From Pseudomonas sp. LD120 (GTDB taxonomy: Bacteria; Pseudomonadota; Gammaproteobacteria; Pseudomonadales; Pseudomonadaceae), in the NCBI RefSeq assembly GCF_009861525.1, contig NZ_WVHL01000005.1:248001-312000 (forward strand): a DNA stretch of 64,000 nt, read 5' to 3'. Made by a program: the position numbers and the translations under genes. Shown here one piece after another: positions 1 through 3,282 of this stretch. The notes under the pieces are model-generated. The model did not search any database, was not told the origin of the DNA, and saw only the letters and a list, made by a program, of their open reading frames with translations. Within the stretch, counting starts at the first letter, position 1. Each line of letters begins with the position of its first letter.

Positions 1-578
1 ACGCCGATCAGGCTGCCATCGCCGAACAGGTCCAGGCCCTGTTCGAAGGGCGCCATCCAGCCCGGCAGTGCACTGCTCGGGCTGGCCTCGGCCAGGCGCA
101 GGCGGGCGCTGAAGTCGTCCGGCAGCAAGCCCGGTAAATGGCCGCCGAGGGTGGCGCGCCAACGCTGGCCGCGCAGGCCTTCTAGATGCCGGTAATCGGC
201 GCCCAGAGCGATAAAGCGCGCATTGGCAAAATCCCGCAACCCGGCGATATGGTCGGCGTGGAAGTGGGAAATGATCACATGGCGGATATCCCCCGGGCCG
301 ATACCCCGTTCATGCAACTGCGCGCCCAACTGTTCCACCACGGGCAGTTGCACCGGCACCGCGCTGCGGTACAGGCGCTCGGGCAGGGCGCGGGTGGCCT
401 GGAAGAAGTGCTCGGCGTAGCCGGTGTCGTAGAGGATCCAGCCGTGCTCCGGGTGCTGGATCAGCCCGCACAGGGCCGGAAACTGCACCGGCGCCAGGCG
501 CCCGCCACGGTCGGCCATGCATTCCAGGTGCTGGCACCAGCCGGCCCGCAGTACCTTCAAGCTCACGCGGCGGCTCAT
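1..578 (-). CDS. Metallo-beta-lactamase-fold hydrolase (3' end outside window)
   Basis: About 192 N-terminal codons are visible; the C-terminus lies left of the window. Read on the minus strand, the protein starts MSRRVSLKVLRAG and carries the classic metal-binding motif HFHADH within VIISHFHADHIAGL, so it is a two-metal hydrolase of the MBL fold (lactonase, glyoxalase or esterase-like; substrate unknown). Its ATG overlaps the TGA of the upstream reductase gene (ATGA), and that gene overlaps the ketosynthase in the same way, so the three are translationally coupled and probably act in one pathway. The family is broad, so only the fold and a hydrolytic role are supported. Confidence 0.85.
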   Translation of the reverse strand, partial: MSRRVSLKVLRAGWCQHLECMADRGGRLAPVQFPALCGLIQHPEHGWILYDTGYAEHFFQATRALPERLYRSAVPVQLPVVEQLGAQLHERGIGPGDIRHVIISHFHADHIAGLRDFANARFIALGADYRHLEGLRGQRWRATLGGHLPGLLPDDFSARLRLAEASPSSALPGWMAPFEQGLDLFGDGSLIG

Positions 579-1582
579 GGCTTTTGTCTCTGTTGGGCCA
601 GCCACCATTGGGCGTGCTGGGCAATGCCCTGGTCCTGGCTGATCACCGGGCGATAGCCCAGGTCGCGCTGGATGGCGCTGATGTCCAGGGTCTGACTGAA
701 GGCCAGGACGCCGGCGCCGTAGCGGGTGATCAAGGGCTCGGCGCCGTTGCCCAGGCGCGCCTTGAGCTCCAGCAGGCGCGCCACGCCATGCACCAGGGGC
801 CAGGGCAGGCGGCGGGTGCGCAGCGGCAGGCGGAAGTGCTCGGCCATTTGTTGCAGCAGGTCCTTGAAGGCCAGCGGCGTGCCGTTGCTCAGGTTGTAGA
901 TGCACAGTGGGCGCGGCAGGGGCCGGGTCAGCGCCAGCCACACCGCGTGCACCAGGTTGTCGACGCAGGTCAGGTCCAACTGCGCCTGGCCGCCGCGCAT
1001 CAGCGGAATCGCCCCGCGTTGCATCACCCGCAGCAGGCGCGGCATCAGGGTTGCGTCCCAGGGGCCGAACACCGCCCGAGGGCGCAGGATCACGCATTCG
1101 GGCAGCTTGGCGTCTGTCAGCAGGGTTTCGGCCTGGGCCTTGCTGCGGGCGTAGTCATTCACCGGTGGCGGCAGTGGCTGGTCTTCGCGGATGCCCAGGC
1201 GGTCGCTGAAGTCGAAATACAGGCTCGGGGTGGAAATGTGCACCAAGCGCGGGATGCGGTTCTTGCCGCAGGCGTGGATCACCTCGGCGGTGGAATCGAG
1301 GTTGGCCCGGGCAAACGCCTGGGGCGAACCCCAGGGTGACGACAAGGCGGCGCAATGGACAATGGCGTCATGTTCGCGGCTGACATCGGCCAGCAGGCGC
1401 TTGGCCAACGGGGTGCCGTGCTCCAGGGGCAGCCAGCGCACCGGCGCCGGGCTGTGGGCAATCACCTCGGCCGCCGCCTCGGGGTTGCGTCCGCTGAACT
1501 GCACTTCGCAGCCTTCGGCGGCCAGCTTCCAGACCAGATGCCGACCGATAAAACCGGTTCCACCGGTGACCAGGATCTTCAT
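575..1582 (-). CDS. NAD(P)-dependent epimerase/reductase, extended SDR family (OleD/3-beta-HSD-like)
   Basis: 335 residues beginning MKILVTGGTGFIGRHL, the Rossmann nucleotide-binding motif TGGTGFIG of extended short-chain dehydrogenases. A YARSK sequence near residue 140 supplies the catalytic Tyr-x-x-x-Lys pair. The family includes sugar epimerases, 3-beta-hydroxysteroid dehydrogenases and OleD, which reduces a beta-keto acid made by the thiolase-like OleA. Because it directly follows a FabH/OleA-like ketosynthase with an ATGA overlap, reduction of a ketosynthase product is the natural inference, but the substrate is not shown. The ATG at 1582 is chosen because it overlaps the upstream stop; reading further upstream enters the ketosynthase gene in another frame. 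Confidence 0.85.
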   Translation of the reverse strand: MKILVTGGTGFIGRHLVWKLAAEGCEVQFSGRNPEAAAEVIAHSPAPVRWLPLEHGTPLAKRLLADVSREHDAIVHCAALSSPWGSPQAFARANLDSTAEVIHACGKNRIPRLVHISTPSLYFDFSDRLGIREDQPLPPPVNDYARSKAQAETLLTDAKLPECVILRPRAVFGPWDATLMPRLLRVMQRGAIPLMRGGQAQLDLTCVDNLVHAVWLALTRPLPRPLCIYNLSNGTPLAFKDLLQQMAEHFRLPLRTRRLPWPLVHGVARLLELKARLGNGAEPLITRYGAGVLAFSQTLDISAIQRDLGYRPVISQDQGIAQHAQWWLAQQRQKP

Positions 1583-2601
1583 CAGAACTCCAGGACCATG
1601 CCGCCCAGGGACAGGCCGGCGCCGGTGCCGATCAGCAACAGCCGTTGCCCGCGTTGAATGCGCCCGTCGCGCACCGCGATGTCCAGGGCGGTGGGCAGGG
1701 ACGCCGCCACCTGATTGCCGTGCCGGGCAAAGATATCGATGACCTTGTCCGGCCCCAGGCTCAGGCGCTTGGCCGCATGCTGCATGGCCTGTTGGCTGGC
1801 TTGGTGGGGGATGATCCAGTCGATCTGCGTGAGGGGCAGCGCGGCTTGCTGCAGCAAATCGTCCAGCAGTTCGGGCAGGTGCTTGGCCGCCAGGCGGAAC
1901 ACGCCTTTGCCCTGCATGGCGAAGCTGGTCAGGGGCTCGAACGGCACCTCGATGCGCCGCGGGTGAAAGCGCGAACCGCCGGCGGGGATCTGGCACAGCG
2001 CCGCGCCTTCGGCGTAGGTCTTCAGGCGCGAGGCGAGGATTTTCTGGCCGCCGTCGCCCGCCCCCAGGACCACCGCCGCCGCGCCATCGCCGAAGATCCC
2101 GCAGACCTCCACTTGCTGCCAGTCCAGGCCGCAGGAGGCGATGTCGGCGCACACCAGCAGTACGCGCCGGTACTGCCCGGCCTGGATCGGCCAGGACAGG
2201 GTGTCCAGGGCGGCGATAAAACCCAGGCAACTGGCGTTGATGTCCATGGCCGGAGTGCCCGACTGCCCCAGGCCTAGCTCCCGTTGCAGCAGCGCCGCAT
2301 TGCAGGGCATGCCCTGATCCATGGTGCCGCTGGCGCAGACGATCAGGTCCAGTTGGCCAAGCGCCAGGCCCGCCGCGTGCAGGGCCTGGCGCGCCGCTCT
2401 GGCGCCAAGGCTGGCGGCCGTGTCCGCAGGATCGGCGACGTGGCGCTGCTGCACCCCGCTGATGCGCGCCACGCTGCCGATTTCCAGGCCGAGCTGGCGG
2501 TCCAGCTCGGCACTGGTGACCACCCGCTGCGGCAGGGCGTGGCCGGTGCCGAGGATGGCCAGGGCGCGGGCCGGGCGGGGGGAGGACGCTGATGTGTGCA
2601 T
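1582..2601 (-). CDS. FabH/OleA-like 3-oxoacyl-ACP synthase III family protein
   Basis: 339 residues with the thiolase-fold condensing-enzyme triad of the FabH family: Cys125 in INASCLGF, His266 in IIPHQAS and Asn296 in ARHGNQVAASLP. The GDGAAAVVLG stretch is also typical. FabH enzymes condense acyl-CoA with malonyl-ACP; OleA homologues join two acyl-CoAs. Housekeeping fabH normally sits in a fab operon, so this copy, leading a gene set with a reductase and an MBL hydrolase, is more likely part of a specialised lipid or signal pathway. The stop codon overlaps the start of the reductase. The start at 2601 gives a normal N-terminus ahead of the AILGTGHALP strand. Confidence 0.88.
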   Translation of the reverse strand: MHTSASSPRPARALAILGTGHALPQRVVTSAELDRQLGLEIGSVARISGVQQRHVADPADTAASLGARAARQALHAAGLALGQLDLIVCASGTMDQGMPCNAALLQRELGLGQSGTPAMDINASCLGFIAALDTLSWPIQAGQYRRVLLVCADIASCGLDWQQVEVCGIFGDGAAAVVLGAGDGGQKILASRLKTYAEGAALCQIPAGGSRFHPRRIEVPFEPLTSFAMQGKGVFRLAAKHLPELLDDLLQQAALPLTQIDWIIPHQASQQAMQHAAKRLSLGPDKVIDIFARHGNQVAASLPTALDIAVRDGRIQRGQRLLLIGTGAGLSLGGMVLEF

Positions 2602-2634: not shown

Positions 2635-3282
2635 TCAGGTGGCGGACGGCGCGACCGGGCATTGGCTCAGGAAGGCTTGCAGCCCCTGCTGGTAGGCCTC
2701 GGTGGGCATCAGGTCAGTGTGTTTGGCGATGAAGCAGGCCACGCCTTGACGCTCCATATCGGCGTCCGCCACCAGGTAGAAGTCGGGAATTTCCTGCACG
2801 CTTGCGATCCGCTTCCAGGCCAGGCTGCTCTGACCTCCGCGGGTGTTGAGCAGGGTGAAGCCCTGGTCGTCGAAGTTCAGGCAATAGGTGCCTTCGACGG
2901 CCCGCAAGCGGGTTTCGATCAGGCGCTGACTCAACCCGCGCAACGGCGCTTGGGGTTTGATCGGGGTGGCGGCAATCCGGGCTTGCAGGTGCTTGATCCA
3001 GCGCCCGGAAAAGCGCCACCACAGGGGGATGAAGATCAAGGCGAACGCCACCATGGCAATGACCTTCTCCGGGGTGAAGGTCCGCTCGGGGAAGTAGATC
3101 GACAGGCAGCCGCCGATCAGGCACAGGGTGAACATCACGGGACCGATCAAGCGGCTTTGCCACCGGGCAAATGTGTTCATGGCCCGGACATGCTGCTGAT
3201 CATCCTTGAGCAATTCCTGCTTCAGCGGTTCGGCAATCCAGGCTTCGGTGTGGGCGGGGGTGATGCGGTAGTGCAATTCCAT
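2635..3282 (-). CDS. YcxB-like membrane protein
   Basis: 215 residues from MELHYRITPAHTEAWIAEP. Two hydrophobic segments lie near residues 45-90 (LIGPVMFTLCLIGGCLSIYF and VIAMVAFALIFIPLWW), followed by a soluble C-terminal half with the pattern 'FDDQGFTLLNTRG...LAWKRIASVQEIPDFYLV', as in YcxB-type proteins. The function is unknown. It is on the same strand as, and 33 bases upstream of, the ketosynthase gene, so it may head the same transcript. An in-frame extension to 3417 exists but reads through a non-conserved region; the ATG at 3282 gives the normal family start. No strong ribosome binding site is visible. Confidence 0.7.
   Translation of the reverse strand: MELHYRITPAHTEAWIAEPLKQELLKDDQQHVRAMNTFARWQSRLIGPVMFTLCLIGGCLSIYFPERTFTPEKVIAMVAFALIFIPLWWRFSGRWIKHLQARIAATPIKPQAPLRGLSQRLIETRLRAVEGTYCLNFDDQGFTLLNTRGGQSSLAWKRIASVQEIPDFYLVADADMERQGVACFIAKHTDLMPTEAYQQGLQAFLSQCPVAPSAT

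Follow-up and report, generated by a model that had tools for sequence, protein, structure and literature searches.

What is made by a Pseudomonas operon in which genes for a ketosynthase, a reductase and a hydrolase follow one another and overlap? We examined this question in Pseudomonas sp. LD120, within a window of 64,000 nucleotides (RefSeq assembly GCF_009861525.1, contig NZ_WVHL01000005.1, positions 248,001 to 312,000; G000:C5:248001-312000 in our numbering), the left end of which encodes a type III β-ketoacyl-[acyl carrier protein (ACP)] synthase (KAS), a short-chain dehydrogenase/reductase (SDR) and a metallo-β-lactamase (MBL)-fold hydrolase. A preliminary description, made from the sequence of the window, had proposed three consecutive genes for condensation, reduction and hydrolysis of acyl chains, on the pattern of the olefin-forming Ole enzymes. 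Open reading frames (ORFs) and protein families agree on the three genes, and the families support the three reaction types. The operon is real, conserved and biosynthetic, and apparently uncharacterised; no description of the cluster was found in the open-access PubMed Central (PMC) literature, and one may exist elsewhere. We put the chances at about even that it is a dedicated, horizontally moving lipid pathway, in which a core would build a long-chain acyl product and lineage-specific modules would finish the lipid.

As had been anticipated, the gene set continues to the left of the window, where four further genes are found. The seven genes form one operon, all on the minus strand; genes outside the window are given in the coordinates of the extended record L004 (window position equals L004 position minus 14000):

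Window 2601..1582, minus strand: KAS III-type ketosynthase, 339 aa, first core gene; PF08541/PF08545; C125-H266-N296.
Window 1582..575, minus strand: extended SDR (OleD / 3-β-HSD-like) reductase, 335 aa; S117, Y144, K148.
Window 578..1 (L004 14578..13724), minus strand: MBL-fold hydrolase, 284 aa, reaching 277 bases past the left end of the window.
L004 13734..12376, left of the window, minus strand: F390-synthetase-related adenylating ligase of family TIGR02304, 452 aa.
L004 12388..11234, left of the window, minus strand: ATP-grasp ligase, 384 aa.
L004 11237..10098, left of the window, minus strand: tandem GNAT protein, 379 aa.
L004 10101..9085, left of the window, minus strand: Rieske oxygenase, 338 aa.

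The KAS, SDR and MBL genes are intact and consecutive, and together with the ligase they make up what we call the four-gene core. The preliminary description had ATGA overlaps at all three junctions; the window holds two, of which SDR to MBL is indeed ATGA and KAS to SDR is TGATG, a 1-base overlap. Further left, the genes overlap by 11 bases, 13 bases, ATGA and GTGA, in this order. Among 21 contig loci (L030 and L042 left out, gene starts picked by script), the 4-base overlap of SDR and MBL is present in all and the 1-base overlap of KAS and SDR in 18. A sodium:alanine symporter gene comes next, downstream of the Rieske gene. Scans of the operon for promoter-like sites (one found, before the symporter gene, 0.5 expected) and for terminator-like sites (3 found, 5.7 expected) give no support either way.

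The residues that we take to be catalytic in the KAS, SDR, MBL and ligase proteins are kept. The full Cys-His-Asn triad reported earlier for the KAS is confirmed as C125, H266 and N296 and is invariant in 34 of 34 homologues, many of which are mutually related and hence not independent. S117, Y144 and K148 of the SDR and the complete metal-ligand set of the MBL protein (H105, H107, D109, H110, H198, D220 and H272) are likewise kept in 34/34, and G112, S114, G116, G119, E263, D317, R341 and K435 of the ligase in 35/35. Since these residues are retained, no core enzyme looks degenerate. By score, the ligase is a member of TIGR02304 (386.1 bits, cut-off 251.9), a model whose name states no function and for which no paper was found, by name or accession, in the open-access PMC literature. 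The best NCBIfam match of the SDR is OleD (NF042422, 161.2 bits against a cut-off of 580), which upholds the earlier comparison with OleD at the level of the superfamily and no further. A second SDR in the LD120 genome (L104, G000:C3:237986-238957) is nearer to OleD, at 242 bits. The MBL protein is nearest in sequence to lactonases and shares the metal set of the acyl-homoserine lactone (AHL) lactonases AttM and AiiA, but unlike them it sits in a biosynthetic-looking operon, and its best NCBIfam match, AttM, lies far under the cut-off (71.3 bits against 390); a quorum-quenching lactonase is ruled out by this score.

Whether the KAS joins two long chains or extends one bears directly on the product. 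In the PDB, its nearest relative is MxnB (219 bits), with CorB third, and NASCL and GGSR stretches are common to the window's KAS and MxnB/CorB. A tree sets the core KAS and MxnB/CorB apart from three FabH sequences with support of 94/95. Against the housekeeping FabH model TIGR00747 the KAS scores 246.8 bits, under the cut-off of 292, and against the PRK07204-type model NF005541 387 bits, just under the cut-off of 402. The description of the KAS as OleA-like does not hold at the diagnostic residue: all 34 of the core KAS compared have M, I or L where OleA has its catalytic Glu (E117). Glu does stand in this column in the KAS-like protein encoded at L102, an ole locus with an OleD above cut-off. 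According to PMC4578411, OleA and PpyS require a Glu extending into the adjacent active site, and MxnB and CorB carry Val there (V94). MxnB joins two β-ketoacyl chains via two tunnels (PMC5724707), and general background on chain fusion is given in PMC12304814. Taken together, the sequence comparisons make chain fusion by the KAS the favoured but unproven reading over decarboxylative elongation.

The gene set is conserved, and its core recurs across phyla; no assignment of the set to a known primary pathway was found. A ligase search of genome contigs yielded 23 loci out of 67 pattern matches; KAS, SDR, MBL, ligase and ATP-grasp genes were matched in all 23, GNAT and Rieske genes in 22, with neither of the latter two matched in L042. 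In L030, the KAS is in two pieces and the Rieske gene is truncated at the contig end. The near relatives of the operon are those of Pseudomonas protegens, P. chlororaphis, P. cichorii and other Pseudomonas, and gene order is kept among Pseudomonas-type loci. Of 199 Pseudomonas genomes, 14 have a TIGR02304 protein above the cut-off (KAS not counted there), as do 7 of the 398 genomes of a phylum sample; in L088-L090 the ligase falls under the cut-off and the core is present all the same. Among 57 plasmid records with a ligase match, 16 were examined and 15, all but L074, hold all four core genes. Records with the core include Paracoccus, Ketogulonicigenium, Rhizobium, Shinella, Novosphingobium, Paraburkholderia, Burkholderia and Roseateles, as well as E. 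coli, Paenibacillus, Pontibacillus and Fusobacterium (a 2.1 Mb record), so that the core spans Alpha-, Beta- and Gammaproteobacteria, Bacillota and Fusobacterium. In several high-G+C loci, ORF calls by longest frame misread genes, which were therefore placed by tblastn and profile searches.

In E. coli, 672 of 5426 complete genomes, about 1 in 8, hold the four genes at a query coverage of at least 80%. Some of these carrier strains presumably belong to phylogroup B2. In strain LF82 the core sits between narI and the tRNA-Tyr genes preceding purU, and the narI-purU interval is the site in both E. coli records examined. In six of six pairs, the distances of the four core proteins correlate at a Mantel r of 0.88-0.93 (31 loci), a value that none of 999 permutations reached and to which common descent of the hosts contributes too. 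In the KAS tree, the Pseudomonas copy L081 falls with its E. coli counterpart, and transfer between lineages is thereby visible. The core is best read as moving horizontally. A phage origin was considered and rejected: KAS-like matches occur in 13 phage records, and the eight listed are 27-33% identical and presumably resemble the FabH of the host.

The genes beside the core differ between lineages. A profile scan of 30 loci found the ATP-grasp protein in 17, the Rieske protein in 12 and the GNAT protein in 10; the profiles were built from members of the scanned loci and find those by construction. In the Pseudomonas-type set, the ATP-grasp protein passes the PRK06849 cut-off (447.3 bits against 406), and its model (pLDDT 81.5) is nearest to 2pn1 (Z 23.7), GAR synthetase (23.4) and PurK (22.6), with PylC lower (21.2); Foldseek matches include the L-amino acid ligases RizA and 3vot. 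The GNAT protein matched no Pfam or NCBIfam family. Its model, built on a 96% identical orthologue from L022 (pLDDT 84), is a tandem GNAT that resembles Sbb17 (Z 17.4, 3.5 Å over 258 residues), FemX (16.5, 4.2 Å, 282) and MprF (15.8, 3.5 Å, 254). It shares the fold of the aminoacyl-tRNA-dependent FemX/MprF/Sbb17 transferases (Z 14-17 over about 245-285 residues) at an identity of 8-15%. For both proteins, such likenesses between models do not reveal the substrate. The Rieske protein combines PF00355 with VanA_C; D152, H155 and H160 are present in 20/20 and the cluster Cys and His in 19/20, the exception being a broken gene.

In the profile scan, ATP-grasp, GNAT and Rieske genes are all missing from the six E. 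coli-type loci (L073, L081, L082, L083, L084 and L091, of which L073 and L091 are both E. coli). Directly downstream of the core, a Pfam scan found FA_hydroxylase and one or two FA_desaturase genes in L073, L081, L082 and L084, and PAP2_3 in all three loci tested for it (L073, L081 and L082). OlsE is the sole NCBIfam match of the E. coli hydroxylase at E ≤ 1e-5 (66.6 bits, cut-off 475). Elsewhere, a GT21 glycosyltransferase and a second SDR lie upstream in Fusobacterium, Novosphingobium carries both halves of an acyl-[ACP]-phospholipid acyltransferase system next to the core, and one Rhizobium locus has DUF3419 plus a GNAT protein. PAP2_3, DUF3419 and GT21 we take to be lipid head-group enzymes. 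Where such neighbours occur, they favour a long-chain lipid over a small signal as the product.

From these observations we infer the order of reactions, the long-chain nature of the product, its two chains and its head groups. The KAS would condense acyl thioesters, probably by fusing two chains in the manner of MxnB or else by extension with malonyl-ACP; the SDR would reduce the β-keto group, and the MBL protein would hydrolyse the thioester or else a lactone. Adenylation of a carboxylate would fall to the TIGR02304 ligase, whether to supply the KAS or to pass the product on. Lineage-specific modules would then finish the lipid; in Pseudomonas, the ATP-grasp protein and the FemX/MprF-fold transferase might add an amino acid or similar head group, and the Rieske oxygenase might hydroxylate. 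The best reading of the product is a long-chain, possibly two-chain, β-hydroxy lipid. If this is right, an entire lipid pathway has escaped notice in bacteria as well studied as E. coli, P. protegens, P. chlororaphis and P. cichorii; swaps of tailoring genes round one core would allow the chemistry to be solved from a comparison of a few strains, and TIGR02304 could gain its first function. A bolder version, which we regard as unlikely, is that the product is a two-chain, mycolate-like β-hydroxy lipid of a new class, made by the core in Gram-negatives, Bacillota and Fusobacteria, its head group swapped per lineage. The cap would be an aminoacyl group in Pseudomonas, a phospho-linked group in E. 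coli, a glycosyl group in Fusobacterium, a betaine-like group in Rhizobium and perhaps sulfate in Paracoccus and Ketogulonicigenium, a variety that, by analogy, might be likened to the capping of diacylglycerol and ceramide. About 1 in 8 complete E. coli genomes would then encode an undescribed lipid.

Several observations weigh against the proposed lipid pathway. No carrier protein or elongation gene was found among the seven operon genes by Pfam and NCBIfam. In the Fusobacterium record the KAS gene comes last, and 359 bases separate the MBL and ligase genes. DUF3419 is presumed by us to be a BtaA-like lipid enzyme, and NCBIfam and the PDB gave no match for it; the sulfotransferase gene seen in Paracoccus and Ketogulonicigenium is transcribed divergently from the core, to which it may bear no relation, and L008 and L080 hold the four core genes with no recognised accessory gene. 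The structure of Sbb17, the best fold match of the GNAT protein, contains a small molecule, and the fold is thus no evidence of a lipid acceptor. As to the KAS, it exceeds the cut-off of the general KAS 3 subfamily PRK09352 (262.7 bits against 249), which makes plain malonyl-ACP elongation possible. Support for the branch uniting MxnB/CorB with the core KAS (94/95) is below the starred level, and within that branch MxnB/CorB, the Bacillota/Fusobacterium rows and the remaining rows form an unresolved three-way split. In PMC4578411, moreover, MxnB and CorB are placed inside the FabH clade.

The resemblance to MxnB and CorB, enzymes of myxopyronin and corallopyronin formation, also invites a small secreted signal or antibiotic such as a pyrone, butenolide, tetronate or acyl lactone. 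Here the KAS would fuse chains, the SDR reduce, the MBL protein serve as lactonase or thioesterase, and the ATP-grasp and GNAT proteins attach amino acids. The pyrone-forming MxnB as nearest PDB relative, the grouping with MxnB and CorB in the tree, the lactonases nearest to the MBL protein, PylC and L-amino-acid ligases among the ATP-grasp fold matches, and the patchy occurrence of the ligase within Pseudomonas all fit. The KAS III fold, the C-H-N triad and a hydrophobic side chain where OleA has Glu are indeed common to both systems, but the similarity is only moderate, there is no polyketide synthase or nonribosomal peptide synthetase among the seven genes, and the KAS is followed by an SDR, an MBL protein and a ligase that a pyrone would presumably not need. 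Moreover, no transporter or regulator family was matched by Pfam or NCBIfam among the seven Pseudomonas proteins (the GNAT protein being without a family), and the desaturase, fatty-acid hydroxylase and PAP2 genes that immediately follow the core in E. coli-type clusters are of a membrane-lipid type. We consider a signal or antibiotic rather improbable. An aminolipid resembling sphingolipids or ornithine lipids, for which the ligase and GNAT protein would couple a β-hydroxy fatty acid to an amino acid with no chain fusion, is doubtful: the aminoacyl-transferase fold of the GNAT protein, the amino-acid-ligase-like fold of the ATP-grasp protein, the OlsE match of the E. coli hydroxylase and GT21 in Fusobacterium argue for it, yet no OlsB- or serine-palmitoyltransferase-type family occurs among the seven proteins (Pfam, NCBIfam), and both GNAT and ATP-grasp genes are missing from all six E. 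coli-type loci.

The Ole pathway (background in PMC7064751) offers four parallel reaction types, with the KAS in place of OleA, the SDR of OleD, the ligase of OleC and the MBL protein of OleB, and the SDR shares the superfamily of OleD, its best NCBIfam match. However, the OleA glutamate is replaced throughout, the OleD cut-off is missed by a wide score, and ligase and hydrolase come from other families. The preliminary description had suggested looking left of position 1 for an acyl-CoA ligase, OleB/OleC or an acyltransferase; an adenylating ligase and an acyltransferase-fold protein are there, and the OleB and OleC families are not. The glutamate and the family scores rule out membership in OleABCD, so the olefin analogy extends to the types of reaction and no further, and an OleABCD-like route to an olefin or β-lactone is very unlikely. 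Scarcely credible is an alternative FabH for primary fatty-acid synthesis with the other genes hitch-hiking. The PRK09352 score would suit it, as would the low identity (≤31%) of the three other KAS III-like matches in the LD120 genome to the operon KAS; against it, the companion ligase reaches its cut-off in so few genomes of the genus (KAS not counted), the gene set is kept as a unit across phyla, and the KAS stands apart from the three FabH in the tree. Replacement of FabH is ruled out by this distribution and the tree.

One further gene adjoins the operon:

Window 2635..3282, minus strand: YcxB-like protein, 215 aa, Pfam score barely above cut-off.

It lies 33 bases upstream of the KAS gene, a position that it occupies in 10 of 27 loci searched, and its membership in the operon is uncertain.

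Some copies depart from the common arrangement. Three Pseudomonas megaplasmids carry parts of the gene set (L074, pMPPla107; L075, pBASL58; L080, the FeN3W plasmid): L074 has the ligase and ATP-grasp genes only, and in L075 the four core genes are scattered across about 10 kb among hypothetical genes. In the Paraburkholderia plasmid copy (L006:14343-15465), the Rieske gene is split over two frames and probably broken. Candidatus Dactylopiibacterium carminicum, presumably the cochineal symbiont, lacks the GNAT and Rieske genes and has a partial ATP-grasp match (L042:6197-11888), perhaps an eroding cluster. In P. protegens 14B2 (L021:10347-12653), a frameshift or an assembly error makes the ATP-grasp frame extend deep into the GNAT gene, which it does in none of the other 20 contig loci measured. 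Finally, the 386 kb E. coli KE48 plasmid unnamed1 (L073) runs from narX to adhE and includes the cluster, which a similar stretch, narG to rssB, carries on the LF82 chromosome; this 'plasmid' is perhaps an excised or misassembled piece of the chromosome.

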